Shown here piece by piece: positions 2,087-58,061 of a DNA stretch of 64,000 bases; the first letter of the stretch is position 1, and the number at the start of each line of letters is the position of its first letter. Source of the stretch: Axinella damicornis. Its lineage: Eukaryota > Porifera > Demospongiae > Axinellida > Axinellidae. The position numbers were made by a program, and so were the translations under genes. The notes beneath the pieces were generated by a model. It saw only the letters and a list, made by a program, of their open reading frames with translations. It did not search any database and had not been told where the DNA came from. The stretch is from assembly GCA_963931865.1 (NCBI GenBank), contig OZ007510.1, positions 11,670,013 to 11,734,012 of the forward strand, in the 5' to 3' direction.

Positions 2087-4327
2087 TCAGAATATCTGGA
2101 CTCGATTGTTGCTACGGTCGGCTACAAAAACAAAGCCATTTGCATCAACTGCTACTCCACGTGGTCCATTGAACTGGCCTTGTGCTTCTCCCTTCACACC
2201 AAACGACTTAAGAAATTTCCCTTCGGAGGAGAACACTGAAACTCTGTGCTGGTGAGGCTCAGCTACATACACCATGTCACCATGTATAGCAATGGAGTAG
2301 GGAGATTGTAACTGTCCAGTTCCAAACTTCTGCAGGAACTGACCATCTGGAGTGAAGGTTTGAATGTGGTGGTTATTGCGATCAGCAACATATATTATGT
2401 TTCCAGTGCTGTCAAATGCTACATCCATAGGGTAGTTGAATTGTCCGTTTTCACTTCCTTTGCTTCCAAAGCTTCTGTGGTGGGTCAGATTTGTTTTGAG
2501 CACTTGTATTCTATCATTGCCCTCATCACTCACGTACAGTTTGCCATTCTTCTTGTTGAAGCCAATGCCAACAGGGCTGTTGAACTGCAGGGGATTGCTG
2601 CCACGTGTGCCGACTGCAGCAGTGAATTTACCTGTTGTGGTAAACTTTTGAATACGGTAGTTGCTGTTATCCACTACATAGATATTGTTAGCATTATCCA
2701 CTGCTACTCCTGTGGGACCGTTGAACTGGCTGTTTGCTGACCCTTTGCTCCCAAACGATCGGATCTTCATCCCCTCTGGAGTGAAGACTGAGACACAGCA
2801 TGCATTATACTCCGCTACTATGATGTGGCCTTCACTATTGGTTGTTAGTCCCCACGGTTCATTCACATTCCCAATAACCCTGATGGGATTCCTGAGTGTT
2901 TGCAGGGGTGGTCCGACTGTCACTGTAAATGGACTGCCCTTTGTACTCTTCCCTTTGATTCTGATGTGTAGCTCATGGTTCCCTCGTGTAGTTGGCTTGT
3001 ACTTGATCATGTATTTGCTTCTATCGGTATCTTTGACTTGACATTCAGCAGTGGTACCATCTTTGCTGCACACCAGTTCAGCAGTAAGGTTTTGGATTGG
3101 TACAGTACACTCTCTGTCATCCTTGTCCCTAGCATGCAGTGTGACTGTTGCTTCCTCTCCGATGGTTGCAGTTTTCAGACCATCTCCAGTGGTATAGCAC
3201 TTCTCAGGGTAGACTGATCGAGCTACTCCAGCAAACTCTTTGCAGGCTTGGAGGAGGTCCAGACTATCATCAGTCACCAACTGGATGTTTGCCTCCTGTT
3301 CTGGAGCTAATGTGCTAGGGTTGAACTCAGCAGCAATCTGCCCAATCTGTTTGAGCACAGGGGTCTTCATCGCTAGAATCTCTCCCTCACTGCCAGTATT
3401 CAGACTTCCCTCCACGTAATCCAGGCAGCTACTGAGCTTGGTCTGGACTAGCTCACACTGATCCCTCTGTGCTGCCAGACCTTTGAGCTTCTGCTGTGTG
3501 AGTCGGTGTAACTGGCCAACGAGCTCCGTTCTCCGTTGCTCAAGGGCTTGGTGCAGGCGGTCAATATGTTTGTGGATGTCGGCTTCAACTGTAATTCTCT
3601 GGTCTTCTATTTCCTTTGTTCTGGTGACCAGTGCCTGGACTGCTTTGTTGACAGTGGCTAGCTGTTGCTTCACTGGCTGCAGACTTGAAACTATCTCCTC
3701 CTTGTGTTTTGGGAAGGTGTCGGTGACCAGGTCATAGTTGTGTCCCTGGTGGAGGCGTATGGTGCAGTCGTTGCATATGAGCTCTCCACAGGTCTCACAG
3801 TAGATCTTGAGGATGTTTTCTGGGTGCTTTGGGCAGTACATGACCTTCTTTGTTGGAGGAACAAGGTTGGCTGCCTCTTTCTGAACAACACTGAGGCTGG
3901 CTATCTGGTGGGTGCTAAATTCTTTCCATTTTTTGTGAAGCTCAGTGCACTTATTGCAGACAAACTGACCACAGTCACGGCAGAATCCTGTCGCTAGAGA
4001 CTCTTCACATTTCTCGCATTGTGTTTTCTGTGGAGCTTTTGCTTTCAATAGCATATCTCGAATCTCAAACAAATGCTCAACGTGGAAATCGGTCTGCAGC
4101 CCTGACACCCCAGTGGGGGGTAGTGGGGTGGTTCGGCGACAGTTTGGGCAGGTTAGGGTGTGTCCATTGCGATCCTGGACCACTAGACGTTCGAGACATT
4201 TCTTGCAGAAGGAATGGAAGCACGGCAGCAGCTTAGCGTTGGTGTAGGTATCGAGGCAGACAGAGCATTCAAGCTGGGTCATGATCCTTTTTAGTGCTTT
4301 CTCAGCGACACTGGGTGGCTCGTCCAT
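2087..4327 (-). CDS. TRIM-NHL protein, copy T1 (RING, two B-boxes, coiled coil, filamin, six NHL)
   Basis: Intact single coding exon of 746 aa. Order seen: C3HC4 RING (Cys21, Cys24, Cys36, His38, Cys41, Cys44, Cys60, Cys63), first B-box about 104-140, second B-box 165-196 (Cys165, His168, Cys177, Cys180, Cys185, Cys188, His193, His196), coiled coil about 205-330, filamin-type Ig domain about 385-485, then six NHL repeats ending RVQIF. This is the TRIM71/LIN-41-like architecture; in that family the RING is a ubiquitin ligase and the NHL propeller binds RNA or proteins. Specific orthology is not claimed, since the gene belongs to a local expansion. The start MDEPPSVAEK was chosen because a splice acceptor (CCCACAG) ends two bases before the ATG and all copies share it; the upstream in-frame ATG would lie in the 5' UTR intron. 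It carries one extra residue (GNIIYVAD) in the fourth blade. Confidence 0.93.
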   Translation of the reverse strand: MDEPPSVAEKALKRIMTQLECSVCLDTYTNAKLLPCFHSFCKKCLERLVVQDRNGHTLTCPNCRRTTPLPPTGVSGLQTDFHVEHLFEIRDMLLKAKAPQKTQCEKCEESLATGFCRDCGQFVCNKCTELHKKWKEFSTHQIASLSVVQKEAANLVPPTKKVMYCPKHPENILKIYCETCGELICNDCTIRLHQGHNYDLVTDTFPKHKEEIVSSLQPVKQQLATVNKAVQALVTRTKEIEDQRITVEADIHKHIDRLHQALEQRRTELVGQLHRLTQQKLKGLAAQRDQCELVQTKLSSCLDYVEGSLNTGSEGEILAMKTPVLKQIGQIAAEFNPSTLAPEQEANIQLVTDDSLDLLQACKEFAGVARSVYPEKCYTTGDGLKTATIGEEATVTLHARDKDDRECTVPIQNLTAELVCSKDGTTAECQVKDTDRSKYMIKYKPTTRGNHELHIRIKGKSTKGSPFTVTVGPPLQTLRNPIRVIGNVNEPWGLTTNSEGHIIVAEYNACCVSVFTPEGMKIRSFGSKGSANSQFNGPTGVAVDNANNIYVVDNSNYRIQKFTTTGKFTAAVGTRGSNPLQFNSPVGIGFNKKNGKLYVSDEGNDRIQVLKTNLTHHRSFGSKGSENGQFNYPMDVAFDSTGNIIYVADRNNHHIQTFTPDGQFLQKFGTGQLQSPYSIAIHGDMVYVAEPHQHRVSVFSSEGKFLKSFGVKGEAQGQFNGPRGVAVDANGFVFVADRSNNRVQIF

Positions 4328-14821: not shown

Positions 14822-17056
14822 TCAGAATATCTGGACTCGATTGTTGTTTTTGTCGGCTACAAGAACAAAGCCATTTGCATCAACTGTTACTCCTTGTGGC
14901 ACAATGAACTGGCCTTGTGCTTCTCCCCTCACACCAAACAACTTAAGAAATTTCCCTTCACAGGAGAACACTGATACTCTGTGGTGGTAACCATCACCTA
15001 CGTACACCATGTCACCATGTATGGCAATGGAGGAAGGAGATTGTAACTGTCCAGTTCCAAACGTCTGCAGGAACTGACCATCTGGAGTGAAGGTTTGAAT
15101 GCGGTGGTTGTTGTAATCAGTTACGTATACATTTCCAGTGCCATCAAATGCTATATCAAAAGGGTTCTTGAATTGTCCGTTTTCACTTCCATTGCCTCCA
15201 AAGCTGCTGTGGTGGGTCAGATTTGTTTCGAGCACTTGTATTCTATGATTGACCTGGTCACACACGTACAGTTTGCCATTCTTCTTGTTGAAGCCAATGC
15301 CAAAAGGCTTGTTGAACTGCAGGGGATTGCTGCCACGTGTGCCAACTGCAGCAGTGAATTCACCTGTTGAGGTAAACTTCTGAATGCGGTGGTTGTTGTT
15401 ATCCACTACATAGATATTGTCAGCATCATCCACTGCTACTCCTATGGGATTAATGAACTGGCCAATTGCTGACCCTCCGCTCCCAAAGGATCGGATCTTT
15501 ATCCCCTCTGGAGTGAAGACTGACGCACAGGGTGCACTGTTCTCCACTACTATGACGTGGCCTTCACTATTGGTTGTTAGTCCCCGCGGTCCTTTCACAT
15601 TCCCAATAACCCTGATGGGATTCCCGAGTGTTTGCAGGGATGGTCTGACTGTTACTGTAAATGGACTGCACTTTGTACTCTTCCCTTTGATTCTGATGTG
15701 TAGCTCATGGTTCCCTCGTGTAGTTGGCTTGTACTTGATCACATATTTGCTTCTATCCTCATCTTTGACTTGACATCCAGCAACTTTTCTACACACCAGT
15801 TCAGCAGTAAGGTTTTGGATTGGTACCGTACACTCTCTGTCATCCTTGTCCCTAGCATGCAGTGTGACTGTTGCTTCCTCTCCGACTGTTGCAGTTTTCA
15901 GACCATCTCCAGTGGCATAACTCTTGCAGCAGCAAACTGAGTGACCTGTTACTACTTCAGCAAATTCTCGGCAGGCTTGGAGGAGGTCCAGACTATCTTC
16001 AGCCACCAACTGGATGTTTGCCTCCTGTTCTGGAGCTAGCGTGTTAGGGTTGAACTCAGCAGCAATCTGTCCAATCTGTTTGAGCACAGGGGTCTTCATC
16101 GCTAAAATCTCTCCCTCACTTCCAGTTTTCAGACTGCCCTCCACGTAATCCAGGCAGCTACTGAGCTGGGTCTGGACTAACTCACACTGATCCCTCTGTG
16201 CTGCCAGGCCTTTGAGCTTCTGCTGTGTGAGTTGGTGTAACTGGCCAACGAGCTCGGTTCTCCGTTGCTCAAGGGCTTGGTGCAGGTGATCAATGTGTTT
16301 GTGGATGTCAGCTTCGACTGTCATTCTCTGGTCTTCTATTTCCTTTGTTCTGGTGTCCAGTGCTTGGACTGCTTTGTTGACAGTGGCTAGCTGTTCCTTC
16401 ACTGGCTGCAGACTAGAAACTATCTCCTCCTTCTGTTTTGGGAAGGTGTCGGTGACCAGGTCATAGTTGTGTCCCTGGTGGAGGCGTATGGTGCAGTCGT
16501 TGCATATGAGCTCTCCACAGGTCTCGCAGTAGATCTTGAGGATGTTTTCTTGGTGTTTCAGGCAGTACATGACCTTTTTTGTTGGAGGAACAAGGTTGGC
16601 TGCCTCTTTCTGAACAACACTGAGGCTGGCTATCTGGTGGGTGCTAAATTCTTTCCATTTTTTGTGAATCTCAGTGCACTTATTGCAGACAAACTGGCCA
16701 CAGTCACGGCAGAATCCTGTCGCTAGAGACTCTTCACATTTCTCGCATTGTGTTTTCTGTGGAGCTTTTGCTTTCGATAGCATATCTCGAATCTCAAACA
16801 AATGCTCAACGTGGAAATCGGTCTGCAGCCCTGAGACCCCAGCGGGGGGTAGTGGGATGGTTCGGCGACAGTTTGGGCAGGTTAGGGTGTGTCCATTGCA
16901 ATCCTGGACCACTAGATGTTCGAGACATTTCTTGCAGAAGGAATGGAAGCACGGCAGCAGCTTAGCGTTGGTGTAGGTATCGAGGCAGACAGAGCATTCA
17001 AGCTGGGTAGTGACCCTTTTTAGTGCTTTCTCAGCAACACTGGGTGGCTCGTCCAT
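14822..17056 (-). CDS. TRIM-NHL protein, copy T2
   Basis: Intact exon of 744 aa with the same domain order as T1. Its propeller differs from the other copies mainly in loop residues: VVENSAPCASVF, VTDYNNHRIQTF, VGDGYHHRVSVF, VADKNNNRVQIF. The filamin domain lacks the SKDGTTAE stretch (it reads CRKVAGCQVKDED), and the linker before it is altered (TGHSVCCCKSYATGDG), so these are its most diverged parts. The start MDEPPSVAEK follows a CCCATAG acceptor by two bases. Expected role: RING-type ubiquitin ligase with an RNA- or protein-binding NHL propeller (family inference). Confidence 0.93.
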   Translation of the reverse strand: MDEPPSVAEKALKRVTTQLECSVCLDTYTNAKLLPCFHSFCKKCLEHLVVQDCNGHTLTCPNCRRTIPLPPAGVSGLQTDFHVEHLFEIRDMLSKAKAPQKTQCEKCEESLATGFCRDCGQFVCNKCTEIHKKWKEFSTHQIASLSVVQKEAANLVPPTKKVMYCLKHQENILKIYCETCGELICNDCTIRLHQGHNYDLVTDTFPKQKEEIVSSLQPVKEQLATVNKAVQALDTRTKEIEDQRMTVEADIHKHIDHLHQALEQRRTELVGQLHQLTQQKLKGLAAQRDQCELVQTQLSSCLDYVEGSLKTGSEGEILAMKTPVLKQIGQIAAEFNPNTLAPEQEANIQLVAEDSLDLLQACREFAEVVTGHSVCCCKSYATGDGLKTATVGEEATVTLHARDKDDRECTVPIQNLTAELVCRKVAGCQVKDEDRSKYVIKYKPTTRGNHELHIRIKGKSTKCSPFTVTVRPSLQTLGNPIRVIGNVKGPRGLTTNSEGHVIVVENSAPCASVFTPEGIKIRSFGSGGSAIGQFINPIGVAVDDADNIYVVDNNNHRIQKFTSTGEFTAAVGTRGSNPLQFNKPFGIGFNKKNGKLYVCDQVNHRIQVLETNLTHHSSFGGNGSENGQFKNPFDIAFDGTGNVYVTDYNNHRIQTFTPDGQFLQTFGTGQLQSPSSIAIHGDMVYVGDGYHHRVSVFSCEGKFLKLFGVRGEAQGQFIVPQGVTVDANGFVLVADKNNNRVQIF

Positions 17057-24958: not shown

Positions 24959-27202
24959 TCAGAATATCTGGACTCGTTTTTTGTTGTAGTCGGCTACAAG
25001 AACGAAGCCATTTGCATCAACTGCTACTCCACGTGGTCCATTGAACTGGCCTTGTGCTTCTCCCTTCACACCAAACGACTTGAGAAATTTGCCTTCGCAG
25101 GAGAACACTGAAACTCTGTGCTGGTAATACTCAGCTACATACACCATGTCACCATGTATGGCAATGGAGTAGGGAGATTGTAACTGTCCAGTTCCAAACT
25201 TCTGCAGGAACTGACCATCTGGAGTGAAGGCTTGAATGCAGTAGTTGTTGAGGTCAGCTACATATACGTTTCCAGTGCTGTCAAATGCCACATCCAAGGG
25301 ATTCTTGAATTGGCCATTTTCACTTCCGTTGCTTCCAAAGCTACTGTGGTGGGTCAGATTTGTTTCTACCACTTGTATTCTATGATTCACCTGGTCACAC
25401 ACATACAGTTTGCCATTCTTCTTGTTGAAGCCAATGCCAACAGGGTTGTGGAACTGCAGGGGATTGCTGCCATGTGTGCCGACTGCAGCAGTGAATTCAC
25501 CTGTTGAGGTAAACTTTTGAATGCGGTGGTTGTTGTTATCCACTACATAGATATTATCAGCATCATCCACTGCTACTCCCAAGGGATTAATGAACTGGCC
25601 ATTTGCTGACCCTCTGCTCCCAAATGATTGGATCTTCCGGGGCCCCTCTGGAGTGAAGACTGAGACGCAGTATGCACTATTCTCCACTATTATGATGTGG
25701 CCTTCACTATTGGTTGTTAGTCCCCACGGTCCATTCACATTCCCAATAACCCTGATGGGATTCCCGAGCGTTTGCAGGGGTGGTCTGACTGTCACTGTAA
25801 ATGGACTGCCCTTTGTACTCTTCCCTTTGATTCTGATGTGTAGCTCATGGTTCCCTCGTGTAGTTGGCTTGTACTTGATCACATATTTGCTTCTACCCTC
25901 ATCTTTGGCTTGACATTCAGCAGTGGTACCATCTTTGCTGCGCACCAGTTCAGCTGTAAGGTTTTGGATTGGTACTGTACACTCTCTGTCATCCTTGTCC
26001 CTAACATGCAGTGTGACTGTTGCTTCCTCTCCTACTGTTGCAGTTTTCAGACCATCTCCAGTGGCATAGCACTTCTCAGGGCAGTCTGATCGAGCTACTA
26101 ATCCAGCAAACCCTTTGCAGGCTTGGAGGAGGTCCAGACTATCACCAGCCACCAACTGGATGTTTGCCTCCTGTTCTGGAGCTAGTGTGTCAGGGTTGAA
26201 CTCAGCAGTGATCTGTCCAATCTGTTTGAGCACAGGGGTCTTCATCGCTAGAATCTCTCCCTTGCTTCCAGTTTTCAGACTGCCCTCCACGTAATCCAGG
26301 CAGCTACTGAGCTGAGTCTGGAATAGCTCACAGCAATCCCTCTGTGCTGCCAGGCCTTTGAGCTTCTGTTGTGTGAGTTGGTGTAACTGGCCAACGAGCT
26401 CGGTTCTCTGCTGCTCAAGGGCTTGGTGCAGGCGATCAATTTGCTTGTGGATGTCAGCTTCGACTGTCATTCTCTGGTCTTCTATTTCCTTTGTTCTGGT
26501 GTCCAGTGTCTGGACTGCTTTGCCGACAGTGGCTAGCTGTTCCTTCACTGGCTGCAGACTAGAAACTATCTCCTCCTTGTGTTTTGGGAAGGTGTCGGTG
26601 ACCAGGTCATAGTTGTGTCCCTGGTGGAGGCGTATGGTGCAGTCGTTGCATATGAGCTCTCCACAGGTCTCGCAGTAGATCTTGAGGATGTTTTCTGGGT
26701 GCTTTGGGCAGAACATGACCTTCTTTGTTGGAGGGACAAGGTTGGCTGCCTCTTTCTGAACAACACTGAGGCTAGCTATCTGGTGGGTGCTAAATTCTTT
26801 CCATGTTTGATGAATCTCGGTGCACTTATTGCAGACAAACTGGCCACAGTCACGGCAGAACCCTGTTGCCAGAGACTGTTCACATTTCTCACACTGTGTT
26901 TTCCGTGGCTCTTTTGCTTTCGATAGCAAATCTCGAATCTCAAACAAATGTTCGACATGAAAGTCAGTCTGCAGCCCCAAGACCCCAGTGGGCGGTAGTG
27001 GGGTGGTTCGGCGACAGTTTGGGCAGGTTAGGGTGAGTCCATCGCGATCCTGGACCACTAGACGTTCGAGACACTTCTTGCAGAAGGAATGGAAGCATGG
27101 CAGCAGCTTAGCATTGGTGTAGGTGTCCAGGCAGACAGAGCATTCAAGCTGGGTCGTGATCCTTTTTAGTGCTTTCTCAGCAACACTGGGTGGCTCGTCC
27201 AT
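24959..27202 (-). CDS. TRIM-NHL protein, copy T3
   Basis: Intact exon of 747 aa starting directly at MDEPPSVAEK. All RING and B-box cysteine and histidine ligands of T1 are present. Propeller loops differ from the other copies: IVENSAYCVSVF, VADLNNYCIQAF, VAEYYQHRVSVF, VADYNKKRVQIF. One inserted residue occurs after the first blade (EGPRKIQSFG). The acceptor CCCATAG lies two bases before the ATG. Family role: RING E3 ligase with an NHL recognition platform (inferred). Confidence 0.93.
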   Translation of the reverse strand: MDEPPSVAEKALKRITTQLECSVCLDTYTNAKLLPCFHSFCKKCLERLVVQDRDGLTLTCPNCRRTTPLPPTGVLGLQTDFHVEHLFEIRDLLSKAKEPRKTQCEKCEQSLATGFCRDCGQFVCNKCTEIHQTWKEFSTHQIASLSVVQKEAANLVPPTKKVMFCPKHPENILKIYCETCGELICNDCTIRLHQGHNYDLVTDTFPKHKEEIVSSLQPVKEQLATVGKAVQTLDTRTKEIEDQRMTVEADIHKQIDRLHQALEQQRTELVGQLHQLTQQKLKGLAAQRDCCELFQTQLSSCLDYVEGSLKTGSKGEILAMKTPVLKQIGQITAEFNPDTLAPEQEANIQLVAGDSLDLLQACKGFAGLVARSDCPEKCYATGDGLKTATVGEEATVTLHVRDKDDRECTVPIQNLTAELVRSKDGTTAECQAKDEGRSKYVIKYKPTTRGNHELHIRIKGKSTKGSPFTVTVRPPLQTLGNPIRVIGNVNGPWGLTTNSEGHIIIVENSAYCVSVFTPEGPRKIQSFGSRGSANGQFINPLGVAVDDADNIYVVDNNNHRIQKFTSTGEFTAAVGTHGSNPLQFHNPVGIGFNKKNGKLYVCDQVNHRIQVVETNLTHHSSFGSNGSENGQFKNPLDVAFDSTGNVYVADLNNYCIQAFTPDGQFLQKFGTGQLQSPYSIAIHGDMVYVAEYYQHRVSVFSCEGKFLKSFGVKGEAQGQFNGPRGVAVDANGFVLVADYNKKRVQIF

Positions 27203-33479: not shown

Positions 33480-34617
33480 GCACAAAATTTGGATATCAAA
33501 ATATATAACTGGACTCGATTGTTGCTACGGTCCCCTACAAGAGCAAAACCATTTGCATCAACTGCTACTCCGCTTGGTTCATTGAACTGGCCTTGTGCTT
33601 CTCCCTTCACACCAAATGACTTACGGAATTTGCCTTCAGAGGAGAACACTGAAACTCTGTGCTGGTCATATATACTCAGTTACATACACCATGTCACCAT
33701 GTATGGCAATGGAGTAGGGAGATTGTAACTGTCCAGTTCCAAACTTCTGCAGGAACTGACCGTCTGGAGTGAAGGTTTGAATGCAGTTGTTGTTGCTGTC
33801 AGCTACATATACAGTTCCAGTGCTGTCAAATGCTACATCCAAAGGGTACTTGAATTGTCCATTTTCACTTCCGTTGCTTCCAAAGCTGCTGTGGTGGGTC
33901 AGATTTGTTTCTAGCACTTGTATTCTATGATTGCACTGGTCACACACGTACAGTTTGCCATTCTTCTTGTTGAAGCCAATGCCAACAGGGTAGCTGAACT
34001 GCAGGGGATTGCTGCCATGTGTGCCGACTGCAGCAGTGAATTTACCTGTTGAGGTGAACTTTTGAATGCGGTGGTTGTTGTAATCCGCTACATAGATATT
34101 GTCAGCATTATCCACTGCTATTCCTGTGGGATAACTGAATTGGCCGTTTGCTGACCCTCTGCTCCCAAACGATCGGATCTTCTGGAGTGAAGACTGAGAC
34201 ACATTGTGAATTATTCTCCACTACTATGATGTGGCATTCACTATTGGTTGTTAGTCATTCGTCAGCCACCAACTGGATGTTTGCCTCCTGTTCTGGAGCT
34301 AGTGTGTTAGGGTTGAACTCAGCAGTGATCTGTCCAATCTGTTTGAGCACAGGGGTCTTCATCGCTAGAATCTCTCCCTCACTGCCAGTCTTCAGACTAC
34401 CCTCCACGTAATCCAGGCAGCTACTGAGCTGGGTCTGGACTAGCTCACACTGATCCCTCTGTGCTGTCAGGGCTTTGAGCTTCTGCTGTGTGAGTTTGTG
34501 TAACTGCCCAACAAGCTCTGTTCTCCGTTGCTCAAGGGCTTGGTGCAGGTGGTCGATGTGTTTGTGAATGTCGTCAGTTTCGACTGTCATTCTAACATAC
34601 TGATAATTGAACACCAT
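33480..34617 (-). pseudogene. TRIM-NHL copy T4: truncated and internally deleted
   Basis: Only coiled-coil and NHL parts remain. 34255-34617 matches the coiled coil (DIHKHIDHLHQALEQRR to EANIQLVAD); the RING and both B-boxes are missing upstream. At about 34250 the frame runs straight into the NHL-side segment, so the filamin domain is deleted. NHL blades are present at 33666-34202, a frameshift follows in the fifth blade near 33665, and the normal stop after RVQIF is lost (RVQLYILISK). It is placed head-to-tail just downstream of T5, suggesting unequal crossing-over. Confidence 0.88.
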
Positions 34618-34859: not shown

Positions 34860-37100
34860 TCAGAATATCTGGACTCGATTGTTTTGACTTTCAGCTACAA
34901 GAACAAAGCCATTTGTATCAACTGTTACTCCATGTGGTCCGTTGAACTGGCCTTGTGCTTCTCCCTTCACACCAAATGACTTGAGAAATTTCCCTTCACA
35001 GGAGAACACTGATACTCTGTGGTGGCCATAGTCTGCTACATACACCACGTCACTATGTATGGCAATGGAGTAGGACTGTTGTAACTGTCCAGTTCCAAAC
35101 TTCTGCAGGAACTGGCCATCTGGAGTGAAGGTTTGAATGCAGCGATTGTTGCGATCAGCTACATATACATTTCCAGTGCTGTCAAATGCCACATCCATAG
35201 GGTAGTTGAATTGTCCGTTTTCACTTCCTTTGCTTCCAAAGCTTCTGTGGTGGGTCAGATTTGTTTTGAGCACTTGTATTCTATCATTGCCCTCATCACT
35301 CACGTACAGTTTGCCATTCTTCTTGTTGAAGCCAATGCCAACAGGGCTGTTGAACTGCAGGGGATTGCTGCCACGTGTGCCGACTGCAGCAGTGAATTTA
35401 CCTGTTGTGGTAAACTTTTGAATACGGTAGTTGCTGTTATCCACTACATAAAGATTGTCAGCATCATCCACTGCTACTCCTGCGGGATAATTGAACTGGC
35501 CATTTGCTGACCCTTTGCTCCCAAACGATCGGATCTTCATCCCCTCTGGAGTGAAGACTGAGACACAGTGTGCACTCCACTCCACTACTATGACGTGGCC
35601 TTCACTATTGGTTGTTAGTCCCCACGGTCCTTTCACATTCCCAATAACCCTGATGGGATTCCCGAGTGTTTGCAGGGATGGTCTGACTGTCATTGTAAAT
35701 GGACTGCCCTTTGAACGTTTCTCTTTGATTCTGATGTGTAGCTCATGGTTTCCTCGTGTAGTTGGCTTGTACTTGATCACATATTTGCTTCCATCCTGAT
35801 CTTTGACTTGACATTCAGCAGTGGTACCATCTTTGCTGCACACCAGTTCAGCAGTAAGGTTTTGGATTGGCACCGTACACTCTCTGTCATCCTTGTCCCT
35901 AGCGTGCAGTGTGACTGTTGCTTCCTCTCCGACTGTTGCAGTTTTCAGACCATCTCCAGTGGTATAGCACTTCTCAGGGCAGACTGGTTGAGATACTACT
36001 CCAGCAAACTCTTTGCAGGCTTGGAGGAGGTCCAGACTATCATCAGTCACCAACTGGATGTTTGCCTCCTGTTCTGGAGCTAGTGTGTCAGGGTTGAACT
36101 CAGCAGCGATCTGTCCAATCTGTTTGAGCACAGGGGTCTTCATCGCTAGAATCTCTCCCTCACTGCCAGTCTTCAGACTTCCCTCCACATAATCCAGGCA
36201 GCTACTGAGCTGGGTCTGGACTAGCTCACACTGATCCCTCTGTGCTGCCAGGGCTTTGAGCTTCTGCTGTGTGAGTCGGTGTAACTGGCCAACAAGCTCT
36301 GTTCTCCGCTGCTCAAGGGCTTGGTGCAGGCGATCAATTTGCTTGTGGATGTCAACTTCGACTGTCATTCTCTGGTCTTCTATTTCCTTTGTTCTGGTGT
36401 CCAGTGCCTGGACTGCTTTGTTGACAGTGGCTAGCTGTTGCTTCACTGGCTGCAGACTAGAAACTATCTCCTCCTTGTGTTTCGGGAAGGTGTCGGTGAC
36501 CAGATCATACTTGTGTCCCTGGTGGAGGCGTATGGTGCAGTGGTTACAGATGAGCTCTCCACAGGTCTCACAGTAGATCTTGAGGCTTTTTTCGGGATGT
36601 TTCGGGCAGTACATGACCTTCTTAGTTGGAGGAACAAGGTTGGCTGCCTCTTTCTGAACAACACTGAGGCTAGCTATCTGGTGGGTGCTGAATTCTTTCC
36701 ATTTTTTGTGAATCTCAGTGCACTTATTGCAGACAAACTGGCCACAGTCACGGCAGAATCCTGTCGCTAGAGACTCTTCACATTTCTCACATTGTGTTTT
36801 CTGTGGAGCTTTTGCTTTCGATAGCATATCTCGAATCTCAAACAAATGTTCAACGTGGAAATCAGTCTGCAGCCCCGAGACCCCAGCAGGCGGTAGTGGG
36901 GTGGTTCGGCGACAGTTTGGGCAGGTTAGGGTAGGTCCATTGCGATCCTGGACCACTAGACGTTCGAGACATTTCTTGCAGAAGGAATGGAAGCATGGCA
37001 GCAGCTTAGCGTTGGTGTAGGTATCGAGGCAGACAGAGCATTCAAGCTGGGCTGTGACCCTTTTTAGTGCTTTCTCAGCGACACTGGGTGGCTCGTCCAT
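34860..37100 (-). CDS. TRIM-NHL protein, copy T5
   Basis: Intact exon of 746 aa with complete RING and B-box ligands, coiled coil, filamin domain and six NHL repeats. Loop residues again differ: VVEWSAHCVSVF, VADRNNRCIQTF, VADYGHHRVSVF, VAESQNNRVQIF. Blades two to four (NSNYRIQKFTTTGKF through NGQFNYPMDVAFDS) are almost identical to T1, while the flanking parts are closer to T2, so the gene is a mosaic. The start MDEPPSVAEK follows a splice acceptor by two bases. Confidence 0.93.
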   Translation of the reverse strand: MDEPPSVAEKALKRVTAQLECSVCLDTYTNAKLLPCFHSFCKKCLERLVVQDRNGPTLTCPNCRRTTPLPPAGVSGLQTDFHVEHLFEIRDMLSKAKAPQKTQCEKCEESLATGFCRDCGQFVCNKCTEIHKKWKEFSTHQIASLSVVQKEAANLVPPTKKVMYCPKHPEKSLKIYCETCGELICNHCTIRLHQGHKYDLVTDTFPKHKEEIVSSLQPVKQQLATVNKAVQALDTRTKEIEDQRMTVEVDIHKQIDRLHQALEQRRTELVGQLHRLTQQKLKALAAQRDQCELVQTQLSSCLDYVEGSLKTGSEGEILAMKTPVLKQIGQIAAEFNPDTLAPEQEANIQLVTDDSLDLLQACKEFAGVVSQPVCPEKCYTTGDGLKTATVGEEATVTLHARDKDDRECTVPIQNLTAELVCSKDGTTAECQVKDQDGSKYVIKYKPTTRGNHELHIRIKEKRSKGSPFTMTVRPSLQTLGNPIRVIGNVKGPWGLTTNSEGHVIVVEWSAHCVSVFTPEGMKIRSFGSKGSANGQFNYPAGVAVDDADNLYVVDNSNYRIQKFTTTGKFTAAVGTRGSNPLQFNSPVGIGFNKKNGKLYVSDEGNDRIQVLKTNLTHHRSFGSKGSENGQFNYPMDVAFDSTGNVYVADRNNRCIQTFTPDGQFLQKFGTGQLQQSYSIAIHSDVVYVADYGHHRVSVFSCEGKFLKSFGVKGEAQGQFNGPHGVTVDTNGFVLVAESQNNRVQIF

Positions 37101-43442: not shown

Positions 43443-45035
43443 TCAAGGACGTCGCCTGGGACGAAGACGGTGAGACCATAGTTCAGGAGTAACTGTTTCT
43501 TCTTGAGGTTGAGTTTTCTGTGAAGCTAGGCGGTGGTCAGCCTTTGTTTGTTTTCTTCTTCTCTTATTGGACCAAGTTTGTCCAGTTGGTATTTCCTTTG
43601 GGCACATACGTAGTCTTTCCAGGGACACAAATATTGGTGTGTCTTGTGGCCTGTCAACCTGACGAACACTGGCATTGGATGCAGTGAGTTCCAATATTCT
43701 ATACGGCCCATGGAAGGGTCTTGAGAACTTCCAAGCCTTGCCTCGGACTTCGCCAGGCATGTGGACAAAGACTCTGTCTCCAACACGATATTTGCTGGGT
43801 TTACATTTCCGGTCATATTGTTGTTTTTGCTTCTTTTGTGCTTTACAGATGTTTTGTTGAGCCAAGCTCCAGGCATCTGAGAGATTACAAACAAGATCTG
43901 TTTTGAAGTCATCGATATCCACTTGGTAGCATGTACGAGGTGTGGACAATGCTGCTTCAGTAGGGAGCCGTGCATCACGTCCATACAGCAAGTAAAATGG
44001 AGACTCTTGTGTTGACTCCTGCATACTTGTCCTGTAAGCATACAACACATACGGGATTCGTCTATCCCAGTCTCTACCACAGTGATCCACGGTCTTGGCC
44101 AGCATGTCAGTCAATGTTCTGTTAAATCTCTCGACCAAACCGTCGGTTTGGGGGTGATATGCGGAAGTGTTGACTTTCTTGATCCCCAATAGCACATACA
44201 ATTCGTGCAACAAGTCAGATAGGAAGTTTGCACCTCTGTCTGATAGAAGTTTTGCAGGTACTCCATGGCGACTAACAACTTCCACAAGTGCTTGGGCTAC
44301 AGTTTCCGCTTTCTGATCAGCAATGGCAAACACTTCAGGCCATTTTGTCAAATAGTCCATGAAGACCAATGCATATTTGTTGCCATCATAGCTGCAAGGA
44401 AACTGGATAATATCAACTCCAATGCAATCAAATGGTCCAGCAACAGGGATTGGGGAGAGTGGAGGCTTTTGTGCTCGCCCAACACGACGAGAAGCACAGA
44501 CTAAACATGACAGACACCACTTCCGTATGTCAGCTCGCATGTTTGGCCACCAATAGTGCTTCTGTAGCTGACTGTACGTCTTCATTTCCCTTAAATGGCC
44601 AGCCATAACTCCACCATGAGCCTCTTCAATAATCTTTTGCCGCTGATCCCTGGGGACCGCCAACTGTAAACGCCCATCTGGTTGGGTATAATAAAGTGTA
44701 TCATCCAACAGTGTGAACCTGTCAGATATCAGCAAAACCCGCCTTGCCTCAAAGTCTGTGGTAGGGAGATTTCCTGTCTTCATAAATGTAATGAGATCAG
44801 TGAATTCTCCATCAACTGCTTGCAGCTTGTGCCATTCACACTCTTCCTCCTGTCTGGAAGGTACGGATTGCAAAGTGGCAACAATAGCTTCTTTGGGTTT
44901 CAAAGCGGTTTCCTGACTCACAGTTTCGATAACTGAATTTGTGTCAGTATCCAAGGGAATTCGAGAAAGTGCATCGGCAGCAGAGTTTTGCTTCCCAGGG
45001 TGGTCAAATCCAACTCCTGTAGAGCAAGCCCCCAA
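43443..45035 (-). CDS. Gypsy pol, 3' part: end of RNase H and integrase
   Basis: From FDHPGKQNSAADALSR (about 45012) the frame encodes the connection domain and then an integrase. The zinc-binding region is HLREM...HYWWPNMRADIRKWCLSCLVC. The catalytic core has Asp in CIGVDIIQF, Asp in LLSDRGANF and Glu in LVERFNRT. A C-terminal GPYRILEL segment fits the GPY/F module, followed by a basic tail to the stop at 43443. The frame is displaced by one base relative to the upstream gag-pol ORF, so the start listed is only an ORF boundary. The true product is expected to be part of one polyprotein. Confidence 0.9.
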   Translation of the reverse strand: MGACSTGVGFDHPGKQNSAADALSRIPLDTDTNSVIETVSQETALKPKEAIVATLQSVPSRQEEECEWHKLQAVDGEFTDLITFMKTGNLPTTDFEARRVLLISDRFTLLDDTLYYTQPDGRLQLAVPRDQRQKIIEEAHGGVMAGHLREMKTYSQLQKHYWWPNMRADIRKWCLSCLVCASRRVGRAQKPPLSPIPVAGPFDCIGVDIIQFPCSYDGNKYALVFMDYLTKWPEVFAIADQKAETVAQALVEVVSRHGVPAKLLSDRGANFLSDLLHELYVLLGIKKVNTSAYHPQTDGLVERFNRTLTDMLAKTVDHCGRDWDRRIPYVLYAYRTSMQESTQESPFYLLYGRDARLPTEAALSTPRTCYQVDIDDFKTDLVCNLSDAWSLAQQNICKAQKKQKQQYDRKCKPSKYRVGDRVFVHMPGEVRGKAWKFSRPFHGPYRILELTASNASVRQVDRPQDTPIFVSLERLRMCPKEIPTGQTWSNKRRRKQTKADHRLASQKTQPQEETVTPELWSHRLRPRRRP

Positions 45036-48000
45036 CGAGCTAATTTCCCTGAAGGATGTGGTGTGTTGAGTAGAGATTTCAGTGCAGAATGGTCAGTCAG
45101 CACTTTACACTTGTGTCCATAGAGGTACACATGGAAATGTTTGGTTGCCCATACCACTGCCAAGGCTTCAAGCTCACTGATGCCATAGTTTCGTTCATGT
45201 TTCTGCAGTGTTCTGCTGGCATAGGCTATGGGTCGAATGGTTCCATCATCCTGTTCTTGGCATAGGACTGCACCAAGCCCTAATCCAGACGCATCGGTCT
45301 CGAGGATGAAGGGTTGCTCGAAATTTGGGAAGGCAAGTACTGGTGGTGAAGTTAGCAACTCCTTCAAATGTACAAATGCTTCTTCACAGGATGAAGACCA
45401 CACAAATGGAGTGTTTTTCCGGGTGAGGGCATACAGTGGCTCAGCAACTTTGGAGAACTGGGGCGTGAAACGCCTGTAGTAGGAAGCAATTCCCAAGAAC
45501 TGACGCAGGGATTTCAGATTCGTTGGAGTAGGATAACTCCAAATCTTCTCCACCTTTGAAGGGTCAACACTGATTCCTGCTTCTGAGATCACATGTCCAA
45601 GGTAGGTGACCTCTTGTAATGCAAAAGCACATTTCCTAGGCTTCAACCGAAGTCCTGCCTCATGGAGCCTCTCAAAAACGAGATGGAGGTTTTGAAGATG
45701 CTCTTCCCAAGTGCTTGAGATTACCAGGATATCATCCAGATAAACAAAGCATTGTTTTCTGGTTAGCCCTTCGAGAACGGTTTCCATTAAACGTTGAAAG
45801 GTTGCAGGCGCGTTACACAACCCAAATGGCATTACAGTGAACTCAAAGAGACCAGAGTGTGTTGTAAATGCTGTTTTCTCTATGTCATCTGGACTCATTT
45901 CCACTTGCCAATAACCGGATGCCAGGTCCAAGGTGGTGAAGTAACGGGCTCCTGCAAGAACATCCAGTGTGTCGTCAATTCGGGGTAAAGGGTGAACATC
46001 CCTTTTGGTAACAGAATTGAGGCGCCTGTAGTTGACACAAAATCTCATGGAGCCGTCTTTTTTCTTTACTAGTACAACTGGACTGGCCCAGGGGCTGCGT
46101 GAGTGTTTGATAATCCTTTGATCCAACATGTCTTTCACCATCTCATCCACTTGGTCACGGAGTGCAAAAGGGATTCTACGAGGATGCTGATAGATCGGGG
46201 AGTGATCTCCAGTATCAATGGAATGTTGGACTAATTGTGTACAGCCAAGTTCACTGCTGTCAACAGCGAAAAGGTCGGCATGATCAAGGAGGAAATGTTC
46301 AAGGATGTTTTGCTGCTGTGGAGTAATCGCAGCTTGTTGCAGATGTAATTGATCCTTTAATTTCGCAAGTCGGTCATCGGAGCCAAGTTGGTTTGCATCA
46401 GAGTCAAGTTGGTTCGCATCAGAGTCAAGTTGGTTCGCATCAGAGTCAAGTTGGTTCGCATCAGAGTCAAGTTGGTTCGCATCAGAGTCAAGTTGGTTCG
46501 CTCTTGGTTCCGATGTTTCAGATTCTGATTTCAAAGGTACCTTTGCTTTTTCAATGAGCTCATGATCAAGGCTAGCCTCAATTGTATCATCTTCCGAAGA
46601 TGTGGTATGTGAGAAGGACAATGGCTGATCAATTCCCGTTTCATCTGCAGGTTGCATCCAGCCAAGTATTTGACCTCTTCTCAACCAGGTTGGAGACTCA
46701 GCAAAGTTGTACACTGGCAAGCATAATTGGCCTTTATCACTTGGTAACAATAGGGAGTTGGCAATATCAACAGTGCCATTACACAAGCGATTATGTGGCT
46801 CAAATATGTGAGGAGACGAAGACTTGATCTGTCGTGCTCTAGCTTGAAGAACCTTTCCAGCTCTTGCAGGCAACTTGCAAGCTGTCACTAATCGAACAAC
46901 TGCTTTGGGATGACCTTCTCCTTGGGAAGGCTTTGGATTGGATGATCCTGAAGACCTTCGCCGGCGACTGCCACTCACAGTCTGGCATGAAGCAGGTAAC
47001 TTGGGACTGTGTTTTGACCTTGACTTGTGGTGGTATGCAGTGTGTTCTAGACACTCATCTGCATTTTCCACTTGAGTGATTGACAATGGCGGTGCATCAG
47101 ATAGTGCAGAGCATTCATCTTGCTCTGTCGGTAAAGACAACTTGTCTCCATCTGTTGATTGTAAACACAATAGAGAATGTTGATTGCTGTCAAAGACATG
47201 GACTCCAAGCTGTGTCATTAGGTTGGTGCCTAGCAACAATTCAACAGGTGAGTTATCCTGGATGAGCACTACACCTTTTGCCAGACACTCTCCGGCTTGC
47301 AAGTGAAGGGTGATTTCTGCACCAATCGGTAGCTGTTTTCCACAGTATGCGTGTAGCTGCAAACTTGGTTTGCTCAACCCGAGTCTTTGCGCATTTTGCC
47401 TTCTGTGCTCTTCGAGAGTCAAGTGAGGAACTTGACTGTCTGGTTGATCCAGAATTTGTCTGCATAGTGTCTTTGATATGATGGTTGTCGGACACCCTGT
47501 ATCCACCAGAGCTTCCACTTCAAATCCTTCAACAGTCACAGACAGCCTTGGTATTGGTCCCAGTCTGAGAGACATTGTGCTTTGCTTGTCTGTGTCTTTG
47601 ACCTCCTCCTGGACATTCTGCGCACCGTATATCCAGGTTAAAGGTTCAGCTTCATTTGCCAACAGAGTAGTCTCTTGAGCAGATGTTACAGCAGCCGCCT
47701 TGGGTACTGCTTGTCGGCCCGGTGCCTCTGTTTCTCTAGTCCTAGGCGGACCTTGGGCAGGGAATCTTCCATATCGACAATTTTTGGCCACATGACCAGG
47801 CTGGTGACATTTGAAGCAGAGGATTGCTTCTCTCCGACTAGACTGTCCTGCTAATCCTGGATTGGGAACAAGATTCTGTCTGGGTAAAGGGTTCTCCCCT
47901 TGGCGTCTTTCATTTACCATTGGGCCATAGAACTTCTTTGGGACATAACTGGACACTGAGGTACCGTCAAGGTCCCGCTGGCGAACCTCTTCAAAACGTG

Positions 48001-49276
48001 CTTTTTGCCACAGCTCTGAGAAAGTAGCCCCCTCTAGGTATGCAATCTTCCTCTTAATCTCAGGGACAAGGCCCCCAACAAACTGGCTGCTTAGCACTGC
48101 CTGCCCCATTTCCTGTGCATCAGTATTTCCTCGAACTGCACTGGGGTATGCTCTTTGAAATAAACGCTGTAATTCCTGAGCGTAAGTGTCAACTGCCTCT
48201 TTCCTGCCTTGCTTCCTCTCATGGAAGGCACTGCACTCTAGTGCTTGTATTCGCACTGGGGTAAATCTCTTGGACATTGCTTGCACTAATGCTCTGTAGT
48301 CATGCTTCTGCTCATCACTACATGTCTGGAAATATGCCTGAGCAGGCCCACGGAAACGCAAGGCTAGCTGTTTCAGCTTGATATGCTCAGGCCATTCTGC
48401 TAGCTCAGCAACCATCTCAAACTGTTCCAGCCATTGCTGGAATGAGTTATTCACAGAGGTCTGATCATCTCCAGAAAATTCAGGCAATGGTGGCAAATGC
48501 CAAGGACTCAAATTGTGAAAAGTATGCGCGAACTGTAGAGATTCTCTCTTAGTTTGCTCACCTTGGTCCTCTTGACCATGTGGAGTCTCTGCACCTCCAG
48601 GAGACATGTCCTCAGAACCACTGATGAGAGGTGGAGGTTGACTGCGAGCACCAGCTGTCTCCTTTTTTACCTTCACTGGTGTGGTATCTGCTCTGACGAC
48701 TTGAACCAGTTGTTCGGACGCACCGTGCAATTCCCGTCTGCCCTCCAGCAACTGGGCTTCGAGTCTGCGCAATTGTTGCTCAAGGCGCTGCTCCCGCGCC
48801 TCCCACTTCTGTTCCTGCAGGGCTAGAGCTCTGAAGCGCTCTAATTCAGCTTCGTCCTGCTGGCGAGCAAGTGCATTCGCCAATCTCGAAACTTCCTGCT
48901 CGGCGGCGACAGCACGATCCTCAACATTCTGAGAACTTTGCCGCAACTCGGCGAACTGTGTTCGGCACTGATCAAGTTCGGTGCTCAGCTCGGCAAACTG
49001 TGTTCGGCACTGATCAAGTTCGGTGTTCAGCTCTCCGGCAGTTCTTTCCGCGGTCTGCCTCTCCGCTTGGCATTGACGCAGGCGTTCCGCAGTGTCGACT
49101 GTTTCCTGCTGCAATTGTTCCACCTGCCGCCTTAATCGGCCCATCTCCTCCCGACTTCCATCGCCTTGCGGCGCTTTCGCAGGGGTAGTACGTTGGCGCA
49201 CTATTTCTTCTAACCGGACGTTCTCCTCCCGCAGGTTCTCCACCTGCTGCTTCAAATGGCTTTGTCTTGTAGCCAT
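44918..49276 (-). CDS. Gypsy gag-pol polyprotein, frame lost before integrase
   Basis: About 1452 codons from the ATG at 49276 (MATRQSHLKQQVENL); homology ends near 45015 and the frame stops at 44918. Order: N-terminal coiled coil (about 1-190), Gag region with HLPPLPEFSGDD and a retrotransposon Gag core (about 250-430), CCHC knuckle CFKCHQPGHVAKNC (about 485), aspartic protease with VDTGCPTTIIS (about 590), RT with FVYLDDILVIS (about 1175) and RNase H with ETDASGLGLGAVL (about 1325). A seven-residue repeat (NQLDSDA) is present six times between protease and RT (46379-46505). Gag and pol are fused in one frame. One base appears to be missing between QELDL and FDHPGKQ. Confidence 0.92.
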   Translation of the reverse strand: MATRQSHLKQQVENLREENVRLEEIVRQRTTPAKAPQGDGSREEMGRLRRQVEQLQQETVDTAERLRQCQAERQTAERTAGELNTELDQCRTQFAELSTELDQCRTQFAELRQSSQNVEDRAVAAEQEVSRLANALARQQDEAELERFRALALQEQKWEAREQRLEQQLRRLEAQLLEGRRELHGASEQLVQVVRADTTPVKVKKETAGARSQPPPLISGSEDMSPGGAETPHGQEDQGEQTKRESLQFAHTFHNLSPWHLPPLPEFSGDDQTSVNNSFQQWLEQFEMVAELAEWPEHIKLKQLALRFRGPAQAYFQTCSDEQKHDYRALVQAMSKRFTPVRIQALECSAFHERKQGRKEAVDTYAQELQRLFQRAYPSAVRGNTDAQEMGQAVLSSQFVGGLVPEIKRKIAYLEGATFSELWQKARFEEVRQRDLDGTSVSSYVPKKFYGPMVNERRQGENPLPRQNLVPNPGLAGQSSRREAILCFKCHQPGHVAKNCRYGRFPAQGPPRTRETEAPGRQAVPKAAAVTSAQETTLLANEAEPLTWIYGAQNVQEEVKDTDKQSTMSLRLGPIPRLSVTVEGFEVEALVDTGCPTTIISKTLCRQILDQPDSQVPHLTLEEHRRQNAQRLGLSKPSLQLHAYCGKQLPIGAEITLHLQAGECLAKGVVLIQDNSPVELLLGTNLMTQLGVHVFDSNQHSLLCLQSTDGDKLSLPTEQDECSALSDAPPLSITQVENADECLEHTAYHHKSRSKHSPKLPASCQTVSGSRRRRSSGSSNPKPSQGEGHPKAVVRLVTACKLPARAGKVLQARARQIKSSSPHIFEPHNRLCNGTVDIANSLLLPSDKGQLCLPVYNFAESPTWLRRGQILGWMQPADETGIDQPLSFSHTTSSEDDTIEASLDHELIEKAKVPLKSESETSEPRANQLDSDANQLDSDANQLDSDANQLDSDANQLDSDANQLGSDDRLAKLKDQLHLQQAAITPQQQNILEHFLLDHADLFAVDSSELGCTQLVQHSIDTGDHSPIYQHPRRIPFALRDQVDEMVKDMLDQRIIKHSRSPWASPVVLVKKKDGSMRFCVNYRRLNSVTKRDVHPLPRIDDTLDVLAGARYFTTLDLASGYWQVEMSPDDIEKTAFTTHSGLFEFTVMPFGLCNAPATFQRLMETVLEGLTRKQCFVYLDDILVISSTWEEHLQNLHLVFERLHEAGLRLKPRKCAFALQEVTYLGHVISEAGISVDPSKVEKIWSYPTPTNLKSLRQFLGIASYYRRFTPQFSKVAEPLYALTRKNTPFVWSSSCEEAFVHLKELLTSPPVLAFPNFEQPFILETDASGLGLGAVLCQEQDDGTIRPIAYASRTLQKHERNYGISELEALAVVWATKHFHVYLYGHKCKVLTDHSALKSLLNTPHPSGKLARWGLALQELDLTTLGSKTLLPMHFLEFPWILTQIQLSKL
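46379..46505 (-). repeat. 21-bp coding repeat (NQLDSDA)x6 in pol
   Basis: Six units of 21 bp, in frame, almost identical at the DNA level. Located in the linker before the RT domain, where length changes would keep the frame. Confidence 0.95.
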
Positions 49277-49292
49277 CCCGGACAAGCCCCCA
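49275..49292 (-). other. Primer binding site, tRNA-Pro type
   Basis: Two bases inside the 5' LTR the minus strand reads TGGGGGCTTGTCCGGGAT. It differs at one base from the tRNA-Pro primer site known from murine leukaemia virus. The Gag start codon begins within its last two bases. Confidence 0.8.
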
Positions 49293-55830: not shown

Positions 55831-58061
55831 TCAGAATATCTGGACCCGATTGTTGTAACGGTCGGCTACAAGAACAAACCCATTTGCATCAACTGTTACT
55901 CCACGTGGTCCATTGAACTGGCCTTGTGCTTCTCCCTTCGTACCAAACGACTTGAGAAATTTCCCTTCGCAGGAGAACACTGAAACTCTGTGGTGGTAAT
56001 ACTCAGTTACATACACCATGTCACCATGTATGGCAATGTAGTAAGGACACTGTAACTGTCCAGTTCCAAACTTCTGCAGGAACTGACCATCTGGAGTGAA
56101 GGTTTGGATGCAGTGGTTGTTGTAATCAGCAACATATACGTTTCCAGTGCTGTCAAAGGCCACATCCAATGGGTTCTTGAACTGTCCATTTGCACTTCCG
56201 TTGCCTCCAAAGCTACTGTGGTGGGTCAGATTTGTTTCTAGCACTTGTATTCTATGATTGCACTTGTCACACACGTACAGTTTGCCATTCTTCTTGTTGA
56301 AGCCAAGCCAACAGGGTTGTAGAACTGTAGGGGATTGCTGCCCTGTGTGCCGACTGCAGCAGTGAATTTACCTGTTGAAGTAAACTTTTGAATACGGTGG
56401 TTGTTGTTATCCGCTACATAGATATTGTCAGCATTATCCACTGCTACTCCTCTAGGATAATTGAACTGACCATTTGCTGACCCTTTGCTCCCAAACGATC
56501 GGATCTTCTTCCCCCCTGGAGTGAAGACTGAGACACTGTATGCACTACACTCCGCTACTATGATGTGGCCTTCACTATTGGTTGTTAGCCCGCATGGTCT
56601 GTTCACATTCCCAATAACCCCGATGGGATTCCCGAGTGTTTGCAGGGGTGGTCTGACTGTCACTGTAAATGGACTGCACTTTGTACTCTTCCCTTTGATT
56701 CTGATGTGTAGCTCATGGTTCCCTCGTGTAGTTGGCTTATACTTGATCACGTATTTGTTTCTATCGACATCTTTGACTTTACATTTAGCAGTGGTGCTGC
56801 ACACCAGTTCAGAAGAAAGGTTTTGGATTGGTTCTGTGCACTCTCTGTCATCCTTATCCCTAGCATGCAGTGTGACTGTTGCTTCCTCTCCAACTGTTGC
56901 AGTTTTCAGACCATCTCCAGTGGTATAGCACTTTTCAGGGCAGACTGATCGAGCTACTACTCCAGCAAACTCTTTGCAGGCTTGGAGGAGGTCCAGACTA
57001 TCATCAGACACCAACTGGATGTTTGCCTCCTGTTCTGGAGCTAGTGTGTCAGGGTTGAACTCAGCAGCGATCTGTCCAATCTGTTTGAGCACAGGGGTCT
57101 TCATTGCCAGAATCTCTCCCTCACTGCCAGTTTTCAGACTGCCCTCCACGTAATCCAGGCAGCTACTAAGCTGGGTTTGGACTAGCTCACACTGATCCCT
57201 TTGTGCTGCCAGAGCTTTGAGCTTCTGCTGTGTGAGTCGGTGTAACTGACCGATGAGCTCTGTTCTCCGCTGCTCAAGGGATTCATGCAGGTGGTCGATG
57301 TGTTTGTGAATGTCAGCTTCGACTGTCATTCTCTGGTCTTCTATTTCCTTTGTTCTGGTGTCCAGTGCCTGGACTGCTTTGTTGACAGTGGCTAGCTGTT
57401 GCTTCACTGGCTGCAGACTTGAAACTATCTCCTCCTTGTGTTTTGGGAAGGTGTCGGTGACCAGGTCACAGTTGTGTCCCTGGTGGAGGCATATGGTGCA
57501 GTGGTTGCATATGAGCTCTGCACAGGTCTCACAGTAGATCTTGAGGCTTTTTTCTGGATGCTTTGGGCAGTACATGACCTTCTTGGTTGGAGGGACAAGG
57601 TTGGCTGCTTCTTGCTGAACATCACTGAGGCTAGCTATCTGGTGGGTGCTGAGTTCTTTCCATGTGTGGTGAATCTCAGTGCACTTATTGCAGACAAACT
57701 GGCCACAGTCACGGCAGAATCCTGTTGCCAGAGACTGTTCACATTTCTCACATTGTGTTTTCTGTGGAGCTTTTGCTTTCGATAGCATGTCTTGAATCTC
57801 AAACAAATGTTCAACATGAAAATCAGTCTGCAGCCCCGAGACCCCAGCGGGGGGTAGTGGGGTGGTTCTGCGACAGTTTGGGCAGGTTAGGGTGTGTCCA
57901 TCGCGATCCTGGATCACTAGATGTTCGAGACATTTCTTGCAGAAGGAATGGAAGCATGGCAGCAGTTTGGCATCGGTGTAGGTATCCAGGCAGACAGAGC
58001 ATTCGAGCTGGGTTGTGATCCTTTTTAGTGCTTTTTCAGCGACACTGGGTGCCTCTTCCAT
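55831..58061 (-). pseudogene. TRIM-NHL copy T6, one-base frameshift in NHL blade 3
   Basis: Full-length copy starting MEEAPSVAEKALKR (58061), with intact RING, B-boxes, coiled coil and filamin domain (shortened: CSTTAKCKVKD). Near 56308 the other copies read AAGCCAATGCCAAC on the plus strand, whereas T6 reads AAGCCAAGCCAAC: one base is missing. Translation then ends at 56238 (607 aa) after two and a half blades. The rest of the propeller is open in the next frame (to 55831), with VCDKCNHRIQV, VADYNNHCIQTF, VTEYYHHRVSVF and VADRYNNRVQIF. It could be a young pseudogene, a truncated protein or an assembly error. The acceptor ATTAG lies further from the ATG than in the other copies. Confidence 0.85.

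Follow-up and report, generated by a model that had tools for sequence, protein, structure and literature searches.

The genes of the window

The window, by which we mean the whole 64-kb stretch of DNA analysed here, is a piece of a 15.7-Mb contig in the 226-Mb genome of the sponge Axinella damicornis. It carries a row of related genes and gene remnants on its minus strand, and in T1, T2, T3 and T5 the Pfam profiles scoring above their cut-offs are those of a RING, two B-boxes, a filamin domain and NHL repeats, in that order:

2087..4327, minus strand: T1 (L001), intact RING-Bbox-Bbox-filamin-NHL gene (open reading frame, Pfam)
2090..2911, minus strand: six-bladed NHL propeller of T1 with a hypervariable top face (Pfam; codon tests on 13 open copies)
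14822..17056, minus strand: T2 (L012), intact copy, start codon inferred (open reading frame, Pfam)
24959..27202, minus strand: T3 (L005), intact copy (open reading frame, Pfam)
33503..34617, minus strand: T4, broken fragment with a pre-filamin piece and NHL in several frames
34860..37100, minus strand: T5 (L002), intact copy, start codon inferred (open reading frame, Pfam)
55831..58061, minus strand: T6 (L016), copy frameshifted inside the NHL part (open reading frame)

T1 is a single open frame from MDEPPS to the stop, its start codon being inferred, and T6 is divided between a first frame at 56238-58061 and a last part in another frame at 55834-56316. The region between the B-boxes and the filamin domain (residues 200-300) is, by eye, rich in Leu, Gln and Glu. 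Between T5 and T6, at 43443-49285 on the minus strand, we noticed two long overlapping open reading frames resembling a retrotransposon polyprotein, with gag-like, zinc-knuckle, reverse transcriptase and integrase-like motifs recognised by eye. Proteins of the RING-Bbox-filamin-NHL type constitute TRIM subfamily C, which is listed for animals in the accessible portion of PMC3503706.

A DNA search of the sponge's own genome with the T5 propeller as query recovered at least 22 copies of 83-100% identity, T5 counted, which include the window genes and which we term clade A; this number is a lower bound, 40 of the 53 candidates having been scored. All of them lie on the contig of the window, between 10.43 and 11.83 Mb, and TRIM-NHL genes of greater divergence are grouped in arrays of their own (for these, 150 of 919 and 60 of 421 candidates were scored). 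The window belongs to a tandem array of such genes that evolves by birth and death. Among the fetched members of clade A, 12 are open over their full length, and L014 and L027 over the NHL part only. T4 and T6 were excluded from the codon tests. The group tests left out the clade A copies with a broken or partial NHL part (L013, L016 = T6, L024, L028/L033, L031, L032, L034 and T4), L008 as a near-duplicate of L009, L025, L026 and L057, whose frames are disrupted towards their ends, and L029, L030, L035-L037, L039-L043, L046-L050 and L070, which are partial, single or members of other families.

A variable register on a conserved scaffold

The preliminary description had singled out short strings that change freely among the window copies, and all of these are present in the translations: EYNACC, ENSAPC, ENSAYC, EWSAHC and ECSAYS in blade 1, EPHQHR, DGYHHR, EYYQHR, DYGHHR and EYYHHR in blade 5, and DRSNNR, DKNNNR, DYNKKR, ESQNNR and DRYNNR in blade 6. 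We defined 30 register positions as the two residues before and the one after the conserved proline, together with the two that follow V-x-D/E. Across 13 copies, with gaps counted as differences, the mean pairwise difference is 73% at these positions versus 14% at the other propeller positions. The registers of clade A are composed of Asn, Gln, Ser or Thr to 41%, of aromatic residues or His to 21%, and of Arg or Lys to 10%; inspection by eye shows none of them to carry a fixed basic residue across the 13 copies, and the net charge of the 30 sites ranges from -1 to +5 and is mostly positive. Codons of the top-face sites are rich in A, which makes up 0.40 of codon position 1 and 0.49 of position 2.

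Eight Cys/His positions of the RING, which we take to match the C3HC4 spacing, are invariant in 12/12 intact copies, and the further Cys/His positions up to column 215 are likewise invariant, except for 187 (D/H) and 208 (H/Q).

Codon models for clade A

We used our own implementation of GY94-type codon site models (M0, M1a, M2a, M7, M8a and M8), of FEL and of a two-rate group test; all were applied to 13 NHL copies, and M0 and the mixture models to the N-terminal half of 11 copies, with the branch lengths of the site models taken from M0 and free to change only by a common scale factor. Under M0, omega is 0.89 for the NHL part and 0.25 for the N-terminal half. For the NHL part the test statistics are 205.2 (M2a-M1a), 228.5 (M8-M7) and 201.7 (M8-M8a), with M8 assigning an omega of 5.4 to ~13% of the codons; the N-terminal half of the 11 copies gave no positive selection (0.5, 4.5 and 1.0 for the same comparisons). 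The near-constancy attributed earlier to this half is hence confirmed, and the half is moreover under purifying selection.

Pairwise estimates run in the same direction. The NG86 mean dN/dS over 55 pairs is 0.18 for codons 1-366, an intermediate 0.62 for codons 367-477 (linker and filamin), 0.40 for the rest of the NHL part, and 1.90 for 36 register codons (dN 0.56, dS 0.30), the pairwise dS at the register codons being 0.30 vs 0.16. In the eight pairs of highest similarity among those compared, we counted 0-3 synonymous and 23-50 nonsynonymous changes at the 36 register codons, and 19-31 and 17-24, respectively, in the N-terminal half, every change in a multiply hit codon being scored as nonsynonymous. 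This 36-codon register was picked after clade A had been inspected and is therefore circular for clade A. FEL reached p<0.05 at 9 of 274 sites; as this per-site test is too weak to list sites, our argument rests on the group and mixture tests.

Selected sites on the propeller model

An AlphaFold2 model of the NHL part of T5 (34863-35681), made together with three other intact window copies, has a pLDDT of 92.6 and a pTM of 0.92, with 24 strands that form six blades of four. Its closest solved folds include Thin (Foldseek TM 0.93 to 6xg7), zebrafish Lin41 (0.92-0.94 to 6fpt/6fq3), TRIM71, TRIM2/3 and Brat, with all of which the modelled protein would share the six-bladed NHL fold; TRIM2/3/71 also share the domain order RING-Bbox-filamin-NHL with the window genes. 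Loops were assigned from the secondary structure of the model, the D-A and B-C loops constituting the top face by the usual propeller convention.

Of the 24 sites with an M8 posterior above 0.95, 18 fall in D-A or B-C loops, yet these top loops make up just 84 of 272 residues (Fisher p = 4e-6). The other six comprise four sites immediately after the conserved proline position, one at the start of strand C and one in a bottom loop. An even scatter of the variable sites over the propeller would have spoken against a binding surface; on the model they instead share a single face and keep to the same register from blade to blade.

The group test yields an omega of 2.75 for the B-C loops (p 8e-5), and of 2.42 (nominal p 2.5e-6, synonymous rate alpha 1.05) for the 48 structure-defined codons that combine the B-C loops with the last four D-A residues. 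For all residues of the D-A loop omega is 1.38 (p 0.076), with 0.98 for the portion away from strand A. The bottom loops show 0.37 (A-B) and 0.62 (C-D), strands B, C and D 0.29-0.43, and strand A 0.95. Synonymous rates lie at 0.81-1.35 across the eight basic classes and at 0.95-1.10 in the top loops; raised values were found in two small subsets, namely the 12 codons for the first two residues of strand A (2.26) and the 6 codons for the residue that ends strand B (2.34). The site tests that the preliminary description had called for thus place the loop codons above an omega of 1, and its suggestion of diversifying selection on a binding surface is supported by the codon models and the structure-defined group test alike.

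The youngest copies contribute a small observation. L008 and L009 differ by 7 mismatches over 3,858 aligned bases (BLASTN), and the neighbouring pair L031/L032 by 6 over 3,998; the two sets recur ~143 kb apart (contig C6, 10.43 and 10.58 Mb) at 99.6-99.8% identity, which reflects either duplication of the segment in the recent past or an assembly that set two haplotypes in tandem. Four codons distinguish L008 from L009, a number too small for a test: codon 19 differs synonymously, and codons 514, 695 and 696 differ nonsynonymously, the latter corresponding to T5 residues 38 in a B-C loop, 217 at the end of strand B and 218 in a B-C loop. A count of 1086 differences from a MAFFT alignment with flanks included was rejected because one flank is unlike, BLASTN aligning nothing in the first 1,387 bases.

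Probable recombination among the copies

Allowing each blade its own topology gains 131 lnL units over the six blades, a figure that carries no significance test and is prone to overfitting in such short blocks; the unequal trees suggest that sequence has probably been exchanged between copies. When every blade is given its own tree, M8-M8a is still 163.7, and the structure-defined group retains an omega of 2.29 (nominal p 2.3e-5). We further simulated 60 null sets devoid of positive selection on the per-blade trees and analysed them with one tree. As 47 of the 60 exceeded the nominal cut of 2.71, the nominal p values are miscalibrated; the largest statistic among them was 28.7 versus the observed 201.7, with a largest omega of 2.53. 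These null sets list anywhere from 0 to 72 sites with a posterior above 0.95, so that a site list proves little by itself. In the group test, 10 of 100 neutral recombinant sets were nominally significant at an omega above 1; the estimates went no higher than 1.86, and none of the 100 reached 2.42. These simulations calibrate clade A only.

Other TRIM-NHL arrays in the genome

Five groups were tested on common T5-based columns, on which the rerun of clade A gives an M8-M8a of 199.0. The array on contig C9 (6 copies) has an M8-M8a of 86.9 and a structure-defined omega of 2.70 (p 8e-4), the rest of its propeller being not clearly constrained (0.91, p 0.64). The array on C14 (8 copies) has an M8-M8a of 64.8 and a structure-defined omega of 1.76 (p 0.005), with its B-C loops alone not above 1 (1.11, p 0.68). 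In a mid clade related to clade A (9 copies; M8-M8a 42.1), the register set attains 1.85 (p 0.006) and the structure-defined set is not above 1 (1.17, p 0.41). In the 15.5-Mb array of contig C6 (L064-L069, 15.52-15.56 Mb; 6 copies; M8-M8a 35.9), the register set is conserved, with an omega of 0.44 (p 0.002); several of the high-posterior sites of this array, in the gapped columns 60-63, were set aside as probable misalignment. The arrays differ, then, in whether the top face is diversified.

The selected sites overlap those of clade A in 11 of 14 cases for C9 (p 8e-11), 7 of 9 for C14 (p 6e-7), 12 of 14 for the mid clade (p 1e-12) and 2 of 11 for the 15.5-Mb array (p 0.26). Synonymous rates in the register and the rest are, respectively, 1.11 and 0.97 in clade A, 1.15 and 0.97 in the mid clade, 1.56 and 0.92 in C14, 2.48 and 0.80 in C9, and 1.39 and 0.95 in the 15.5-Mb array, so that arrays other than clade A may have a somewhat elevated local rate. 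The C9 and C14 proteins are ~31-34% identical to T5. A protein tree built from 41 open copies unites clade A in one clade (support 0.95) and the C9 array in another (support 1.0) that is sister to two C14 genes, which indicates that clade A and the C9/C14 genes expanded apart. As C9 and C14 are themselves related, they count as fewer than two independent cases.

Residue 103 of the T5 NHL part and its equivalents are repeatedly selected inside the D-A loop, outside the five-position register, in clade A, the mid clade and C9. Another large NHL array, represented by L047, lies on contig C8 at ~2.12-2.35 Mb; in the one fetched member an open filamin-NHL frame of ~430 aa stands downstream of a separate frame judged coiled-coil-like by eye, and no RING was found in the open frame scanned.

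Relationship to LIN41 and to other recognition systems

The TRIM-NHL class is best known for conserved developmental regulators that act on RNA. The residues by which zebrafish LIN41 touches an RNA hairpin are named in PMC5908797, and we placed the 14 named in its accessible portion on the 6fpt chain, where a single offset brings every one of the residue letters into agreement. Judged by their motifs, these contacts are all confined to five registers (both residues ahead of the proline, the next one past it, and positions one and two beyond strand B), that is, to 30 of 272 positions (hypergeometric p 1.5e-15, 272 being the length used for T5). The earlier proposal that the variable positions lie on the face used for RNA binding is accordingly borne out for this protein, at least for its named contacts. 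The two systems nevertheless differ: most RNA-contact residues of LIN41 are identical from species to species, going by the same portion of PMC5908797, whereas in the array copies these very registers are the most variable. Moreover, 8 of the 14 named LIN41 contacts are Arg or Lys, in contrast to 10% in the clade A registers, and conserved basic contact residues of the LIN41 type were not found on the top face in clade A.

A closer parallel in terms of selection is offered by the HET-D/HET-E (NWD) proteins of Podospora anserina. In their WD40 repeats, as described in the available part of PMC1805685, four codons per repeat are under positive selection, namely two that flank a conserved residue of the d-a loop and two within the b-c turn, each of them on the top face. 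Common to both are a repeat propeller, a multigene family and paired top-face positions selected in each repeat. The architectures are distinct, with WD40 and NACHT domains in the fungus as opposed to NHL and RING in the window genes, for which Pfam lists neither WD40 nor NACHT at E up to 0.001; further, concerted exchange of repeats is shown for HET-D/E in that part of the paper, whereas clade A displays only unequal blade trees. By analogy, the array would work like the HET-D/E repertoire without being a member of it.

In the TRIM-SPRY (B30.2) proteins, such as TRIM5 and the fish finTRIMs, a TRIM end is likewise combined with a C-terminal recognition domain in expanded families, and the loops of that domain are under positive selection; the window genes differ in ending in an NHL propeller, with no SPRY listed by Pfam. 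We found no published case of such selection in TRIM-NHL genes, including in the accessible portions of PMC3503706, PMC2533329 and PMC8242945, an absence that is weak evidence because most subscription papers lie outside the library searched. As a separate observation, NHL is listed among the domains of receptors of the sponge Halichondria panicea, TIR-domain ones among them, in a figure legend of PMC8242945, which suggests that NHL propellers may be combined with immune-type heads of other kinds.

A candidate germline recognition repertoire

The codon models show the half with RING, B-boxes and putative coiled coil to be kept by purifying selection and the NHL top face to be under recurrent positive selection in all six blades. 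The selected top-face residues are the neighbours of the conserved proline ahead of strand A and those that come directly after strand B, and the same positions are selected in two distant arrays (C9 and C14). We posit that the top face of each copy binds a different, changing target, which would be presented to the shared RING end of this predicted ligase and marked with ubiquitin, and that the family would constitute a germline-encoded recognition repertoire. On this reading, the genes probably provide a germline repertoire for target recognition with a shared, predicted ubiquitin-ligase end and with either protein or RNA as the ligand. Their targets are most likely non-self or conflict-driven, because the selection for change is recurrent and is repeated in separate arrays.

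As for the ligand, we lean towards protein over RNA, since the top face retains no basic pattern; protein ligands suit so mixed and changeable a surface no less than RNA does, though charge and composition do not decide the choice. The specific alternative, that the top face reads changing RNAs, in the manner of LIN41 and Brat, and the proteins are post-transcriptional regulators or anti-transposon or antiviral factors, overlaps with the preferred reading, being a sub-case of recognition. It draws on the placement of all 14 named LIN41 contacts in the five selected registers (PMC5908797, accessible portion) and on the mostly positive register charge of clade A; against the 8 of 14 basic residues among those contacts, the 10% of Arg/Lys with none fixed in 13 copies by eye leaves it rather unlikely.

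It is improbable that the top face simply fell out of use after duplication and now drifts neutrally on a fold that is itself preserved. Drift predicts an omega of 1, and the observed 2.42 was reached in none of the 100 neutral recombinant simulations; the bottom-face loops, at 0.37-0.62, are constrained, and so is the N-terminal half with its eight RING positions invariant in 12/12 copies. That it is mainly surface loops that change would agree with such relaxed constraint, as would the value near 0.9 for the remainder of the C9 propeller, and the broken copies (T4 and T6) indicate that some relaxation exists.

Quite improbable, too, is a targeted hypermutation of the loop codons, resembling a diversity-generating mechanism and acting alone or with selection. 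The confinement of change to few codons and the A-richness of the top-site codons recall such a process, as do the register synonymous rates raised in C14 and C9, the clade A pairwise dS of 0.30 vs 0.16 and the two small classes with alpha of 2.26 and 2.34. The A-richness, however, presumably follows from the codons for Asn, Ser, Tyr and Lys; dS is imprecise where the codons are few and many of them multiply hit, the synonymous rate estimated by maximum likelihood for the clade A top loops is ordinary (1.05-1.11 vs 0.97), and omega is above 1 even where the synonymous rate is raised.

An artefact of gene conversion or recombination among the copies is hardly credible, for although the blade trees differ and the test is inflated in 47 of 60 nulls, the signal persists with a tree per blade (163.7), the maximum of 28.7 simulated for clade A falls far below 201.7, and both the one-face placement and the recurrence in other arrays would be left unexplained.

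Returning to the recognition repertoire, we tentatively extend it, with somewhat more doubt than assurance, to a set of TRIM-NHL arrays that expanded separately and would encode intracellular receptors diversified at about five positions per blade; together these would form a germline repertoire for pathogens or for self/non-self discrimination, convergent with the fungal HET propellers and having ubiquitination as its output. Diversifying selection on a propeller recognition surface, described for fungal WD40 receptors in the available part of PMC1805685, would now be met in TRIM-NHL arrays, where it falls at the positions that LIN41 uses to grip RNA. The analysis supplies a precise list of residues for tests of specificity and makes the question of what the NHL face binds testable by loop swaps between natural copies. 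It also suggests that an animal may possess, in these arrays, one more class of candidate genes for innate recognition.
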